NCBI GenBank assembly: GCA_017503325.1
Contig: JAFVTI010000038.1
Span: 1 to 64,000, forward strand
Reading direction: 5' to 3'
Source: Clostridia bacterium
GTDB taxonomy: Bacteria; Bacillota; Clostridia; Oscillospirales; CAG-272
DNA: 64,000 bases
A model generated the notes under the pieces. That model ran no database searches and was not told the DNA's origin. It worked only from the letters and a program-made list of their open reading frames with translations. Of this stretch, positions 36,648 to 49,537 are shown one piece after another. A program made the position numbers and the translations under genes. Every line of letters begins with the position of its first letter. The first letter of the stretch is position 1.

Positions 36648-37226
36648 TTACTGATTTCTCGCAAACTCACTTGAAAGCATGGAATAGGTTCCCACGGTGC
36701 GATACGCGCCCTTGACCAGCATGGCCTCGCGTCTTTCTCCCTCAAAGCGCATGCCAAGGCGCTCCATGAGCCTGCAGGAGCGGTCGTTACCCTTTAAGTA
36801 CCTTGCCTCGATGCGATGCAGCTTGAGCGCGACAAAGCCAAAGCGTACCACCTCGGCAACCGCCTCGGTCGCATACCCCTTGCCACAGTAGTCGGGATGA
36901 AATACGTAGCCGATCTCGCCTGCGTCGTTGGGGTAATCAAAGCGCGTAAAGCCGCAAGAGCCGATGACTCTGCCGCTTTCCTTTTCCACCACGGCCCAGT
37001 CGAAATAGTCGCCCACGCTGTATCTCTGCCCGATATAGCGCAGATAATCCTGCGTGTACGCCATGCTCGTGTGCGGTGCCCAGGTCAGATACTCGGTCAC
37101 GTCGCTGCGGCAGGAATAGGCGTAAATATCCTCCTTGTCCGAAACCAGCATCTTGCGCAAGATCAGTCGCTCGGTCTGGAGCGTGGGGATTTTTGAAAAG
37201 ATACGGTATATGCTTTCCTTTTTCAT
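36648..37226 (-). CDS. GNAT acetyltransferase (RimJ/RimL-like)
   Basis: 192 residues. Typical features are LQTERLILRKM at the N terminus, IGSCGFTRFD, and AGEIGYVFHPDYCGKGYATEAV with the acetyl-CoA-binding pyrophosphate loop. It acetylates an unknown amine, perhaps a ribosomal-protein N terminus or an antibiotic. GGAG lies 8 nt before the ATG at 37226; an upstream in-frame ATG has no such site. Its promoter (TTGCAA, 17 bp, TATAAT) is at 37257-37285. Confidence 0.88.
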   Translation of the reverse strand: MKKESIYRIFSKIPTLQTERLILRKMLVSDKEDIYAYSCRSDVTEYLTWAPHTSMAYTQDYLRYIGQRYSVGDYFDWAVVEKESGRVIGSCGFTRFDYPNDAGEIGYVFHPDYCGKGYATEAVAEVVRFGFVALKLHRIEARYLKGNDRSCRLMERLGMRFEGERREAMLVKGAYRTVGTYSMLSSEFARNQ

Positions 37227-37256
37227 GGATATTGCTCCTTTGGTCGTCATATCCCC

Positions 37257-37285
37257 ATTATAACGGATTACAAGAGCTTTTGCAA
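37257..37285 (-). promoter_or_regulatory. Promoter of the GNAT gene
   Basis: -35 TTGCAA (37285-37280), 17-bp spacer, -10 TATAAT (37262-37257). Confidence 0.65.
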
Positions 37286-37325: not shown

Positions 37326-37354
37326 GTGACAAGACACGACTTTTGTGATATAAT
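37326..37354 (+). promoter_or_regulatory. Promoter of the pre-ATP-grasp/murE2 pair
   Basis: -35 GTGACA (37326-37331), 17-bp spacer, -10 TATAAT (37349-37354), 34 bp ahead of the first start codon. Confidence 0.65.
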
Positions 37355-37387: not shown

Positions 37388-37777
37388 ATGAAAGAACAGC
37401 TTGGCCGCGTGATGGTACCCGTGCTGCTGGGTGACGGCGCACAGGCAAAAGGCATTGCGCGCAGACTTTACCGCCGCTTTGGCGTGATCTCGCACATCTA
37501 TTGCGCTCACCCCTCGCTCTTTACCTATCTGCTTTCCTGCGCCCGTGTGGTGCGCACGCCCGACTATCTGCAAGGGGAGCTGCTGCTCGAGGATCTTTGC
37601 ACCTTTGCGCGGGAATACCCCGATCTGCTCTTTTGTCTGATCCCCTGCACCGATGCATACAAGGCCTTTTGCATGGCGCATGCGGAAAGGTTAGAGCCCT
37701 ACTACGTCATCCTGCAGCCCGAGCAGCTTGCCCGCGATGCGCTGCCCTATCTTTCCAAGGAGGAGATGGCCGTATGA
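37388..37777 (+). CDS. Stand-alone pre-ATP-grasp-like domain protein
   Basis: 129 residues with a strong GGAGG. The fold pattern VPVLLGDGAQAKGIARRLYRRFG, then VVRTPDYL, and LFCLIPCTDAY, resembles the N-terminal pre-ATP-grasp domain of carboxylate-amine ligases of the D-aspartate-ligase kind (VLLG-x-D-x-x-x-YGMAR...). The ATP-binding grasp domain that should follow is missing; the reading frame ends and overlaps the ATG of the MurE-like gene (ATGA). It may be a remnant, or a small partner subunit of the MurE-like enzyme. Assignment is by eye and tentative. Confidence 0.6.
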   Translation: MKEQLGRVMVPVLLGDGAQAKGIARRLYRRFGVISHIYCAHPSLFTYLLSCARVVRTPDYLQGELLLEDLCTFAREYPDLLFCLIPCTDAYKAFCMAHAERLEPYYVILQPEQLARDALPYLSKEEMAV

Positions 37778-39243
37778 AGCTTTCCGAACTCATCCGAGAT
37801 TTAGCATATACCTGCTCGCGTCCCATTCCCGACGCAGAGATCACTTATATCTGCCACGACTCGCGCAAGGCGGGTCCCGACGCGCTGTTCGTATGTATTT
37901 GCGGCTACGTCAGCGACGGACACAGCTACGCCCTGTCTGCTTATTCAAACGGTGCACGCGTATTCGTGGCGCAAAAGCCGCTCTCGCTGCCCGCTGACGC
38001 GCTGGTGCTTTACGTGCCCGATTCCCGCCTCGCGCTTGCCAAGCTGGCAGCCGCCATAAACGACCACCCCGCGGACAAGCTGCACATAATCGGTATTACG
38101 GGCACCAAGGGCAAAACCACCACCGCGCTGATGATCCACGGTGTGCTGGAATCGCTGGCCATTCCCTCGGCCTACATAGGCACCAACGGCATTGATTTTA
38201 GCGGCAGACACTACGCCACGGTCAATTCCACGCCTGAAAGCTTGGATCTGCACGAATACATGGCGCAGATGGTGGAATGCGGTATCAGATACGTAGTCAT
38301 GGAGGTGTCCTCGCAGGCACTCAAGCTGCACCGCGTGTACGGCATCAGCTTTGACACCTGCATCTTTACCAATCTCTATCCCGATCACATCGGTGGCGTG
38401 GAGCACGCCGACATGGAGGAATACAAATCCTGCAAGAAAATGCTGTTCTCCTTCCCCGGTATCAAACATATCCTGTGCAACGCGGACGATCCCGAGGCGG
38501 CATACATGGTCGAAAGTGCAAGCGCGCCCGTGACCACATTTGGCAAGGGCAAGACTTGCGATTGGCGCGGCAGCCGCGTCAAGGCCGAAATCTGTCACCG
38601 CGTACCGGGTACGACATTTACCTGCCACACACCGGATGGTCTTACCCTGCCCGTACAGATCCCCTTCCCCGGTGATTACAGCGTTTACAACGCGCTGTGC
38701 GCTCTGGCGGTTTGCGACAAGCTGGGCATTCCGCTTGAGGACAGCGTCGCCGCGCTTGGCCACGTGCGCGTCAAAGGTCGCTTTGAGCCTGTATTTCTGC
38801 CAGGTCGACCCGATACCACCTTTATCATCGATTACGCGCACAACGGGGCTTCCCTGCGTGCCGTGCTGGAGTCCTTGCGTGCTTATAAGCCGAGGCGTCT
38901 GATCTGCTTGTTCGGATCTGTGGGCGACCGCACGCAAATGCGCCGCTTGGAGCTTGGCGCGGTGGCAAGCGAGCTTTGCGACCTCTCGATCCTGACCTCG
39001 GACAACCCGGGCAACGAATCTCCCGATCAGATCATCGCGGACATTGCAGCCGCCTTTACCCACGACCGCTATGTCTCTATCCCCGACCGCGCCGAGGCGA
39101 TCGCCTGGGCGGTGAAGCAAGCGAAAAAAGGCGACGTGATCGTGCTTGCAGGCAAGGGCCACGAGACCTACCAGTACGTGCGCGGCAAATACCTGCCCTT
39201 CTCGGAAAGGGAGATTTTGATGGAAGTTGATAAGATGCTGTAA
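37774..39243 (+). CDS. MurE-like UDP-MurNAc-peptide ligase, second paralogue
   Basis: 489 residues from the ATG that overlaps the preceding stop; in-frame starts further upstream lie inside that gene. Mur ligase features are GITGTKGKTTTALMIHG (ATP loop near 110), VNSTPESLDLHEYM, VMEVSSQAL, TNLYPDHIGG, YKSCKKMLF (carbamylated Lys region) and DYAHNGASLRAVL. MurE enzymes carry DNPR for meso-DAP; here the motif is DNPGNE, so the Arg is absent and another amino acid may be attached. The cluster murE at 48020-49537 has DNSR. The final 60 bp are duplicated at 40689-40748. Confidence 0.8.
   Translation: MKLSELIRDLAYTCSRPIPDAEITYICHDSRKAGPDALFVCICGYVSDGHSYALSAYSNGARVFVAQKPLSLPADALVLYVPDSRLALAKLAAAINDHPADKLHIIGITGTKGKTTTALMIHGVLESLAIPSAYIGTNGIDFSGRHYATVNSTPESLDLHEYMAQMVECGIRYVVMEVSSQALKLHRVYGISFDTCIFTNLYPDHIGGVEHADMEEYKSCKKMLFSFPGIKHILCNADDPEAAYMVESASAPVTTFGKGKTCDWRGSRVKAEICHRVPGTTFTCHTPDGLTLPVQIPFPGDYSVYNALCALAVCDKLGIPLEDSVAALGHVRVKGRFEPVFLPGRPDTTFIIDYAHNGASLRAVLESLRAYKPRRLICLFGSVGDRTQMRRLELGAVASELCDLSILTSDNPGNESPDQIIADIAAAFTHDRYVSIPDRAEAIAWAVKQAKKGDVIVLAGKGHETYQYVRGKYLPFSEREILMEVDKML
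39184..39243 (+). repeat. Direct repeat, left copy (3' end of murE2)
   Basis: These 60 bp encode the last 19 residues and stop of the MurE-like protein. They match 40689-40748 at 57 of 60 positions. Such a duplication of a gene's 3' end around an insert looks like the footprint of site-specific integration. Confidence 0.75.
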
Positions 39244-39302
39244 TAACATTCCCAGTCCAACTCACAGTTGTAGTTAGTCGAATTCGTGAAATACCCTGTC
39301 GC

Positions 39303-39331
39303 TTCCAATACGTCAAAAAATACGGTATAAT
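39303..39331 (+). promoter_or_regulatory. Promoter of the HTH-methyltransferase gene
   Basis: TTCCAA (39303-39308), 17-bp spacer, TATAAT (39326-39331). Confidence 0.55.
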
Positions 39332-39361
39332 ATCAGCACCAAGAAGAAAGAGGTGTGAATT

Positions 39362-40339
39362 ATGATAAACAAAACCCATTTTGGAAAGAAAATAGCTGTA
39401 CTAAGACGTAAAGCAGGATTATCACAAACAGATTTAGCCGAAAAGCTTGGTATTACATCACAGGCGGTATCAAAATGGGAATGTGGCAATGCAATACCGG
39501 ATATTGATATACTCCTGGAGCTATCCCATCTGTATAAAGTTACAATTAACGAGATGCTTGAAGATGTTGATCTGCTTTGCGAATTAACCGGCAAGGAAAC
39601 CGGCCGCTCTGGAATAGCCTATTTTGTGCCGGAGCAGGAACGAGATTATAATCTCGAATGGGTAAACAATATACAAAGCGGGAAATGGATCAAGCGTAAT
39701 TGGGAACGCTCACGAGCCGACAATGCCTATATGGACGGTGTCGGAAAGCAGATCGCTTCTCAAGGCGGAATCATTCTTGAAATCGGCGCAGGTCCCGGTG
39801 GTGGATATATGCCCTACATTCTCAAAGCAAATCCGGATTCGACGGTAATCATCAGCGATCTTTCTCCAACGGTTGTTCGGGAATGGAAATCTTTCTTGGA
39901 CAAGTCGCTTGATTCGCCCAATATCTATTACGCTGCTCTTGATTTTTGTAATATGCCTTTCAAGGATAACACCATTGATATCATTTCAGATGGTGGAGGC
40001 ATTGGTAACTGCGAAGGAATAAAGGCAAAAGCCTTAAAAGAAGCGTTCCGAGTCTTGAAGCCCGGTGGCAAACTCATTACATCCACAGGTTTTGTAAACA
40101 AGGAAACGCTTGCAGCTCTCCCCCAACAAGCTCAAAAGGTTTTGCTTGAACAGCGTCCCGATGTGTTCGAAGATTTATATGAGGATACGGTTCTTGCCGG
40201 ATTCAGTAAAATTGATAGTGTCATCAGCGGTTGTTGGTACACCGACAATGACGAAAGCACTATTGCCGATTTAGCACGTTCCCTTGGTGTGAATTTGAAA
40301 TTCACAAGCTATACAAGATACTGTACCAAAGAGGAATAA
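39362..40339 (+). CDS. XRE regulator fused to SAM-dependent methyltransferase
   Basis: 325 residues. Residues 1-65 are an XRE helix-turn-helix (GLSQTDLAEKLGITSQAVSKWE). Residues about 130-260 are a class I methyltransferase: motif I IILEIGAGPGGGYM, motif II VIISDLS, and a VLKPGGKLITSTGF strand typical of Methyltransf_11. Codon use is clearly AT-richer than its neighbours (many AAA, GAA, ATT codons). It sits between the two copies of the murE2 3' end, which fits a recently acquired cargo gene. The methyl acceptor is unknown. Confidence 0.8.
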   Translation: MINKTHFGKKIAVLRRKAGLSQTDLAEKLGITSQAVSKWECGNAIPDIDILLELSHLYKVTINEMLEDVDLLCELTGKETGRSGIAYFVPEQERDYNLEWVNNIQSGKWIKRNWERSRADNAYMDGVGKQIASQGGIILEIGAGPGGGYMPYILKANPDSTVIISDLSPTVVREWKSFLDKSLDSPNIYYAALDFCNMPFKDNTIDIISDGGGIGNCEGIKAKALKEAFRVLKPGGKLITSTGFVNKETLAALPQQAQKVLLEQRPDVFEDLYEDTVLAGFSKIDSVISGCWYTDNDESTIADLARSLGVNLKFTSYTRYCTKEE

Positions 40340-40384
40340 TACCTCATTGATCCAAACGGATGTGCATTTAAGCATATGCGCGAT

Positions 40385-40640
40385 ACAAGCCTTCTCCGCG
40401 GGAGAAGGTGGCGGCGTAGCCGACGGATGAGGTTCCCATAAAACCGCTCAAAGCCGTCTTAAACCGCTCGCCCCCAAAGGGCGACAAATGCATCCTCCAT
40501 AGTGTGCATTCACGAATGCACCGCACATCCGCTCATGTGAAAGAGCGTCCGCAAGATGAACCTCACCCACCGCCCGCTCGCAAGCTCGCTGCGCGGTCCC
40601 CCCTCTCCAGCGCCGAGGGCTTTTTTGTAAGATCGCGCCC
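40385..40640. repeat. Palindromic repeat, family 1, copy 2
   Basis: Hairpin-rich segment without a gene. CTTCTCCGCGGGAGAAG (about 40390-40406) precedes GGTGGCGGC and GACGGATGAGG. At 40536-40572 the string GTGAAAGAGCGTCCG, then CTCACCCACCGC, matches the outer arm of the copy at 1437-1482. GGTCCCCCCT followed by CCGAGGGCT near 40592-40621 matches the inner arm. Lies inside the insert between the two murE2 3' ends. Confidence 0.65.
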
Positions 40641-40688
40641 AAAAGGCGAATCCCCAAGCGCGAGAGCCTTCTTTTTTGAAAAGGATAG

Positions 40689-40748
40689 GGCAAATACCTG
40701 CCCTTCTCGGAAAGGGAGATTTTGATGGAAGCGGATAAAATGCTGTAA
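40689..40748 (+). pseudogene. Duplicate of the murE2 3' end
   Basis: 60-bp copy of 39184-39243 with three substitutions, all in the last 20 bp. It keeps the reading frame and stop but has no upstream coding region. A terminator follows at once, which would be the original murE2 terminator; the intact murE2 has none. So this copy is probably the ancestral end of the gene. Confidence 0.75.
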
Positions 40749-48019: not shown

Positions 48020-49537
48020 TCACTCTCCTTTTCGTATATCCTCTTGGGTGCTCCCGCGACGTTCCGCCACCGCTTGTGCCACGATGGCCCGCTCGTCAAA
48101 CGGAAGTCTTTGGTTTTCCTTGATCTCGTATGTTTCGTGACCCTTGCCCGCAAGCAGAATGACGTCTCCCCTTCTTGCGTGTGCGATCACGTGTCGGATC
48201 GCCTCCCGCCTGTCACGGATGACGCGATAATGCGCCCGCCTGTCAACGCCCTTGATGATATCCGCTATAATATCCGAGGTCTGCTCGCCTCGGCTGTTAT
48301 CCGCTGTAATGACCGTGTAATCGGCATATCTTGACGCGATCTGCCCCATCTGTGCGCGCTTGCCGCGATCTCGATCTCCACCGCAGCCAAACACCAGCAC
48401 CACGCGCTGCGCGCGCATTTTCATGCGCTGCACCGCCTTGAGAAGATTCTCCAGTGCGTCAGGCGTGTGCGCATAGTCGATAAACACCGAGCAATCCATA
48501 TCGGCAGGCAGGGCCACGCGCTCCATGCGCCCCGGGATGGGCTGCACCAAGGGCATAACGTCCTTGATCTTGTGCGCCTTGACGCCAAGCAGCATGGCAG
48601 CCGCCACAGCTTCAACGGAATTGATCACGCCAAACAATCCGCCGATCGGACATCCGATGCGCACGCGTGCGTTGGGCGAGACCAGATTGTACGAAACGCC
48701 CGAAAAGCTCATGCCGATCTCCTCGGGATAATAGTCCGCCTGCTTGCTTCTTACCGAGCAGGTATAGATTCCGTCGGGGCGGATGGTGCGCAGCGTTGCA
48801 AGCTTGGCATCGTCCACGTTGAGCAAGATCCGCTCGCTTTGCTCGATCAGCTTTTTCTTGGCTGCAAAGTAGGCCTCTTGCGTGCCGTGAAAATCCAGAT
48901 GATCACGCGTCACGTTTGTAAAAATGCCAAGGTCAAATCGGATGGGAGCGCACCGTTGCATGCAAAGCGCATGTGAGGTGACCTCCATGACCACGATCTT
49001 GGCCCCCTGCCCTGCCATCTTTGCAAGCATAGGGTACAGCACCTCGGGATCGGGGGTGGTCATATTGGCGGTCGTGCTCTCGTCCTTGGGGAAAATACCC
49101 TCGGGCCCCTCGCACTTGACCGTGCCGATCAGTCCGCACGGAATTTGTGCCGCGCGCAAAAGCTCGTACAAAATCCAGGAGACCGAGGTTTTGCCGTTGG
49201 TGCCCGTCACGCCCACAAAGCGCATTTTGCAGGAGGGCTTACCGCACCACGCGTCCATCAGCTGCGCGATGGCCAGTCTGGTATCGGGAACACGCAGCGC
49301 AAATAAACCGCTCGGGATCTCTCCCTCGTAATCCTCAGCCACGACGGCTGCGCATGCGCCGCGATCGGCTGCGTCCTGCAGGTATGCATGACCGTCGGTT
49401 TTTGTCCCCTTCAGGCAGACGAACAGCTCCCCGTCCGTCAGCTTGCCAGAATCTGTGCAGATGCCGCATACCTCGATTTTCTCTGCACCCGCGGGGCAAT
49501 CCAGCCCCGCTGCTTCACATAATGACGAAAGAATCAT
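48020..49537 (-). CDS. murE: UDP-MurNAc-dipeptide:amino acid ligase MurE (cluster copy)
   Basis: 505 residues. ATP loop VGVTGTNGKTSVSWILYEL near 110, MEVTSHALCMQRC, TNVTRDHLDFHGT, YFAAKKKLI and DYAHTPDALENLL. The substrate-selecting motif reads DNSRGE, close to the DNPR of meso-DAP-adding enzymes, so DAP is the likely third residue. It follows spoVD by 56 nt with GGAGG 5 nt before the start. A paralogue at 37774-39243 has a different motif. Confidence 0.93.
   Translation of the reverse strand: MILSSLCEAAGLDCPAGAEKIEVCGICTDSGKLTDGELFVCLKGTKTDGHAYLQDAADRGACAAVVAEDYEGEIPSGLFALRVPDTRLAIAQLMDAWCGKPSCKMRFVGVTGTNGKTSVSWILYELLRAAQIPCGLIGTVKCEGPEGIFPKDESTTANMTTPDPEVLYPMLAKMAGQGAKIVVMEVTSHALCMQRCAPIRFDLGIFTNVTRDHLDFHGTQEAYFAAKKKLIEQSERILLNVDDAKLATLRTIRPDGIYTCSVRSKQADYYPEEIGMSFSGVSYNLVSPNARVRIGCPIGGLFGVINSVEAVAAAMLLGVKAHKIKDVMPLVQPIPGRMERVALPADMDCSVFIDYAHTPDALENLLKAVQRMKMRAQRVVLVFGCGGDRDRGKRAQMGQIASRYADYTVITADNSRGEQTSDIIADIIKGVDRRAHYRVIRDRREAIRHVIAHARRGDVILLAGKGHETYEIKENQRLPFDERAIVAQAVAERRGSTQEDIRKGE

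Follow-up and report, generated by a model that had tools for sequence, protein, structure and literature searches.

A stand-alone pre-ATP-grasp domain and a second, probably non-DAP MurE ligase at one locus of gut Clostridia: a possible binding or regulatory protein derived from an enzyme

Introduction

What function can be left to a protein that resembles only the first domain of a ligase, and what is its relation to the second MurE that directly follows it? This question is raised by a locus in the window, i.e. the whole stretch of 64,000 nucleotides that was analysed (contig JAFVTI010000038.1, positions 1 to 64,000, from a Clostridia bacterium). An earlier note on this DNA had described the small protein as a split version of a D-Asp-ligase-like enzyme, coupled to a MurE paralogue without the DAP motif and expressed with it from their own promoter, and had suggested that the pair could attach a different third amino acid or build a peptide other than the wall stem. 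The D-Asp ligase AslA/Aslfm and the racemase RacD are known from Lactococcus lactis and Enterococcus faecium, with a racD-aslA operon in lactic acid bacteria (PMC4155827). In our literature searches on murE2 and on MurE together with ATP-grasp and racemase genes, this review was the only relevant report and no MurE2/ATP-grasp/racemase operon was found described.

Results and Discussion

Organization of the locus

The small protein, here called N, is a stand-alone pre-ATP-grasp domain protein of 129 aa (37388-37777, forward strand), as judged from its ORF, homology, dN/dS and an AF2 model. The second MurE-family ligase, MurE2, is an intact protein of 489 aa (37774-39243, forward strand) identified by motifs, family models and a structure-sequence match. 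The stop codon of N and the start codon of MurE2 overlap by ATGA (37774-37777, forward strand), as the earlier note had stated, and NTGA overlaps with the next gene were common among relatives. A sigma-A-type promoter, GTGACA-17-TATAAT with TG ahead of the -10 (extended -10; 11/12 positions), lies at 37326-37354 on the forward strand and ends 33 bp upstream of N. It is conserved in the window genome and in 3/3 genus-mates, and the proposal that the pair has its own promoter thus held in all four genus members. In the three genus-mates N was 64-71% and MurE2 79-84% identical to the window copies.

On the other side a divergent gene for a RimJ/RimL-like GNAT acetyltransferase was found in the neighbour survey (36648-37250, reverse strand), with a promoter of its own from the motif search (TTGCAA-17-TATAAT, 37257-37285, reverse strand) that is conserved within the genus. 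The MurE of the dcw cluster (48020-49537, reverse strand; DNSR, TRDHLD), presumably the housekeeping DAP ligase, was used for comparison only.

Homology and fold of N

In direct HMM and sequence searches N alone had no match in Pfam, NCBIfam or the PDB sequences, and it is covered by no Pfam or NCBIfam model. Its relationship emerged from profile-profile comparison with relatives from the same family, in which a ligase of 400-440 aa occupies the operon position of N and is followed by an Asp/Glu racemase and then by MurE2. N aligned with residues ~4-114 of this ligase, with an hhalign probability of 98.2 (E 4e-14) for a profile of 8 sequences and of 99.1 (E 1e-18) for one of 16 sequences. The resemblance to the N-terminal domain of ATP-grasp ligases, missed by the standard libraries, is thereby supported, and the D-Asp-ligase-like context was also recovered, given that the relatives' ligase with the homologous N-domain lies next to an Asp/Glu racemase, like the D-Asp ligases. 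The AF2 model of N (pLDDT 82, pTM 0.79) is Rossmann-type with a strand/helix alternation matching that of the relatives' ligase, and its matches include carbamoyl-phosphate synthetase, biotin carboxylase and PurT. Since a Foldseek search with N alone gave generic Rossmann-type matches, none at E <= 0.001, the fold assignment rests on the sequence homology.

N contains the pre-ATP-grasp N-terminal domain of the ATP-grasp carboxylate-amine ligases and ends at residue 129 with the ATP-grasp domain absent. An ATP-binding half was found neither near the locus nor elsewhere in the window genome, and an Asp/Glu racemase was found in none of the genomes searched for it (the window genome, its three genus-mates and five further N genomes); at some other N loci a racemase does adjoin N. 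With both the ATP-binding half and a racemase homologue missing from the genome, N is almost certainly a domain-only derivative of an ATP-grasp ligase, and the catalytic domain was lost rather than split off, contrary to the word "split" in the earlier note. A frameshifted or divided ligase was considered and ruled out: there is no second half nearby or elsewhere, no frameshift was found and the ORF is intact throughout the genus. Homologous loci with a full-length ligase do exist in other genera, not at the locus of this genus.

The full-length ligase of the relatives was modelled with a pLDDT of 92.6 and matched PylC, PurK, an L-amino acid ligase and carbamoyl phosphate synthase-like proteins. 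PylC, an enzyme that joins a D-ornithine derivative to the side-chain amine of L-lysine, was the best Foldseek match (E 4e-16; VIA Z 22.6-23.3), at only 13% identity and with PurK, PurD and biotin carboxylase scoring about equally; unlike PylC, N has no catalytic domain. The operon of the relatives holds the same two kinds of gene as the AslA/RacD system, an ATP-grasp ligase and an aspartate racemase in one operon, and the agreement with AslA/Aslfm lies in fold and operon context and not in a sequence comparison. The relatives' operon differs in adding a second MurE, and the window in lacking both the ATP-binding domain and the racemase.

Distribution of N and of the operon

The window organism and its relatives are gut Clostridia, and a series of losses at the MurE2 locus extends across the family. 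A profile search over 395 genomes of the window's family gave matches in two length classes, one of about 120-180 aa and one of about 400-440 aa. Among the fetched loci, stand-alone N occurred in eleven genera (g1, g3, g6, g40, g44, g47, g48, g53, g63, g64 and g67). Outside the family no stand-alone N was found in 295 genomes of the order, where all matches lay in frames of at least 400 aa. The genomes are mostly metagenome assemblies, in which absences may partly reflect incompleteness, and the locus counts given here are not independent, the loci being phylogenetically related.

With the full-length ligase the gene orders were ligase-racemase-MurE2 and ligase-MurE2; with N they were N-racemase-MurE2, N-MurE2 and, in g53, N followed by a degenerate MurE2. 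In five g44 genomes an intact N stands without racemase or MurE2 downstream. Conversely, MurE2 was found without N at four loci (L015, L018, L019 and L068), and in one genome (G302, locus L204) N is broken by stops. Given such lineages without N and the one with a stop-broken copy, N appears dispensable in places. The earlier picture of N and MurE2 as a pair therefore stands as far as their coupling goes and fails for an obligate unit, each occurring without the other and their divergence showing no specific correlation (see below).

In a tree of the N-domain, built on few columns, the stand-alone forms fall on one side of a branch with support 91, which fits a single origin of stand-alone N. 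In the MurE2 tree the N-rich clade also contains a locus with a full-length ATP-grasp ligase (G020), and the loss may thus have occurred several times or been followed by re-acquisition.

In Claveliimonas bilis the operon contains an extra MurE-like ligase of 507 aa (L129:4279-5802), flanked by the racemase on one side and by the operon's MurE, which has DNPR, on the other.

Conserved residues of N and selection

The stand-alone N proteins were compared position by position with the full-length ligases. The ligase-invariant residues D14, N16, Y18 and G83 were present in only 0-5% of the stand-alone proteins, D86 in 16% and T85 in 24%, and of the second ligase motif (G83-C-T-D86 of ligases) the window N keeps only C87, T88 and D89; the invariant N-domain residues of the ligases are thus, as a set, not preserved in N. 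Other positions have become conserved instead: E103 was found in 96% of the stand-alone proteins, while no residue exceeds 32% at this position in the ligases, and position 41 is K/R in 80% of the former versus Tyr in 94% of the latter (His in the window N). This combination of lost ligase residues and newly fixed ones is a pattern of changed function rather than of decay.

Within genus g1, N had a dN/dS of 0.15-0.25 and MurE2 one of 0.09-0.14; where MurE2 is missing from the genome, N gave 0.20-0.37 at dS 1.3-2. For most pairs compared dS was close to 1 or higher, and one g1 comparison at dS 0.53 gave 0.15 for N. In the closest g53 pair, where MurE2 is degenerate, N was 91% and MurE2 82% identical, with dN/dS of 0.07 and 0.17, respectively. 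N is clearly maintained by purifying selection and has therefore probably acquired a role of its own.

Two alternatives can be weighed against these data. According to the first, N is a relic leader ORF: translation of MurE2 depends on the strong ribosome-binding site of N and on the ATGA overlap, and the protein itself is idle. N is indeed the first ORF, its NTGA overlaps with the next gene are common, and across genera the stand-alone proteins are only 24-36% identical to the window N. Selection acts on the amino acid sequence, however, E103 is newly conserved, and N is intact in the five genomes with nothing to translate downstream in the way of racemase or MurE2, which makes an idle leader unlikely. 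According to the second, the whole locus is decaying stepwise (ligase, racemase, MurE2 and finally N) and no new function has arisen. The graded series of losses, the degenerate MurE2 of g53 and the one stop-broken N would fit such a course, but N and MurE2 both have dN/dS well below 1 and ORFs that have stayed intact for long, the promoter is conserved and N has newly conserved residues; all this already speaks against decay, which we regard as highly unlikely. A binding or regulatory role of N accounts for more of the data than a leader role.

Motifs and predicted specificity of MurE2

MurE2 matches the MurE family (TIGR01085), with three Mur ligase domains, the P-loop Lys, the carbamylated Lys, the DYAH His and GKGHE, and an alignment confirmed that the P-loop Lys, carbamylated Lys, His, Arg, Asp and Glu positions are retained. 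Because all catalytic residues checked are retained, MurE2 is probably active. Textbook MurE motifs are DNPR and VSSHAL. MurE2 has DNPG (residues 410-413, codons at 39001-39012 on the forward strand), VSSQAL and TNLYPDHIGG, exactly as first reported from the letters; for the dcw MurE, to which the usual motifs had been ascribed, DNSR and TRDHLD were found as described and VSSHAL was not, the protein reading VTSHAL. The two MurEs of the window genome are of the same family with the same catalytic residues and are 35% identical, and they differ in DNPG versus DNSR and YPDHIG versus TRDHLD.

The possibility that VSSQAL and the DHIGG loop mark specificity was ruled out, as they are clade features that occur in DNPR enzymes too: the Gln of VSSQ was present in 22/53 other MurEs, many of them with DNPR, and VSSQ and the DHIGG-type loop are seen in DNPR MurEs such as those of L083 and L090. 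This leaves DNPG as the only mark of MurE2 as unusual. The DNPR motif is a feature of DAP MurEs (PMC3681970), and MurE2 lacks its arginine, as had been claimed. Residue 413 was Arg in 45/53 other MurEs and non-Arg in nearly all operon MurE2s. It was Asp in 36/46 loci with MurE2 beside a full-length ATP-grasp ligase, mixed Gly/Asp in loci with N and racemase, and Gly/Asn/Ala, never Asp, in 19/19 N loci without racemase.

The Lys-type MurE of PDB 4c12, named as an L-lysine ligase, matched MurE2 with E 1e-74. It has DNPA, hence no Arg at this site either, and its R/D/E side-chain contacts align with those of MurE2, an alignment that by itself does not fix the substrate; MurE2 differs from it by Gln for His in VSSHxL, a DHIGG loop two residues longer and a location outside the dcw cluster. 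As with the DNPA of 4c12, Gly, Asp, Asn or Ala at residue 413 suggests that the third residue lacks a second carboxylate. With DNPG standing where DNPR is expected, MurE2 is probably a non-DAP (Lys/Orn-like) ligase, and we consider it likely that the enzyme is both active and non-DAP; addition of a different third amino acid, as originally suggested, is thus plausible.

Could MurE2 nevertheless add DAP, or be a redundant housekeeping MurE in which DNPG is irrelevant to specificity? It passes the NCBI DAP-ligase model NF001126 with 440.7 bits (cut-off 373), a model not shown to separate substrates. The loss of Arg at residue 413 from nearly all operon MurE2s and the presence of a dcw MurE with DNSR in the same genome speak against a DAP-adding MurE2, which we judge distinctly improbable.

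Catalytic residues of MurE2 were intact across the survey except in g53. There, apparent pseudoenzymes (L190, L191, L197-L200 and L227-L232) are kept beside N as full-length ORFs of 478-508 aa, in which the DYAH His is lost in 12/12 (now Tyr/Phe), the Gln of VSSQ is now Tyr and the Glu of GKGHE is often lost.

The GNAT neighbour and covariation with MurE2

The GNAT gene was the immediate divergent neighbour in 49/56 N loci versus 0/37 loci with the full-length ligase, in both cases counted over related loci, so that a p-value computed from these counts exaggerates the association. It persists beside N even where MurE2 and the racemase are lost, and in genomes with full-length ligases its orthologue usually lies elsewhere. 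The adjacency may reflect frozen synteny or a functional link. The divergence of N tracked that of GNAT more than that of MurE2, and no specific covariation of rates between N and MurE2 was found (partial r given GNAT 0.09, permutation p 0.13; partial r 0.29 when g53 was left out).

These numbers bear on the idea that N is a subunit dedicated to MurE2 and, by docking on it, changes which substrate the enzyme chooses or how active it is. The gene order and the coupled stop and start codons agree with a subunit, as does the contrast at residue 413 between N loci without racemase and loci with a full-length ligase. Against it are the occurrence of N without MurE2 and of MurE2 without N as well as the closer match of N divergence to GNAT, and we hold a subunit to be improbable to about the same degree as an idle leader. 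Both roles are possible and both explain less than a binding or regulatory protein.

A possible history of the locus

The ancestral locus would have held the genes of an ATP-grasp ligase and an Asp/Glu racemase in one operon with a second MurE. In this operon MurE2 would supply position 3 of the stem with a non-DAP diamino acid, the racemase would make a D-amino acid and, by analogy to AslA/RacD, the ligase would attach it to the side-chain amine; the product would be a stem with a non-DAP residue bearing a D-Asp-like branch, as the racD-aslA analogy suggests. The ATP-binding part of the ligase was then lost, probably once, in an ancestor of several genera of the family, with the pre-ATP-grasp domain alone being kept. 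The freed domain has shed residues conserved in the ligases, gained others and been kept by selection.

In the window lineage the racemase and the branch ligation are gone, as far as this assembly goes, and MurE2, most likely an active UDP-MurNAc-dipeptide ligase judging from its motifs, would still make an unusual tripeptide with a residue without a second carboxylate, e.g. Lys or Orn. N would most likely be a non-catalytic binding protein, such as one that senses or regulates a wall precursor or an amino acid; it would be expressed together with MurE2 where the latter exists, without depending on it. Our preferred, if tentative, assignment for N is a binding or regulatory function that can be separated from MurE2. 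For the locus as a whole, read as a non-DAP MurE that is active and, next to it, a former ligase domain that now serves as a non-catalytic binding or regulatory protein, we estimate a probability of roughly 45%. More doubtful is the wider proposal that the domain, freed once, makes up a family of autonomous wall-precursor or amino-acid sensors or regulators whose linked MurE2 builds a non-DAP stem beside the DAP stem. Should the reading hold, a second kind of stem peptide is encoded in these gut Clostridia, and the successive losses within one family illustrate how a domain of an enzyme can outlive the enzyme.

The 3' end of murE2

An insert of ~1.5 kb (window 39184-40748) follows murE2 in the window; it carries an XRE-type/methyltransferase gene (39362-40339), and a 60-bp direct repeat (95%) corresponding to the 3' end of murE2 stands on either side of it. 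Given that the hairpin seen after the second repeat copy sits directly after murE2 in a genus-mate (L058), it seems that an element inserted itself at the end of murE2 and rebuilt that end. The assembly SIG620 (loci L058 and L055) contains two different murE2 copies on separate contigs, 92% and 84% identical to the window murE2, perhaps from mixed strains.
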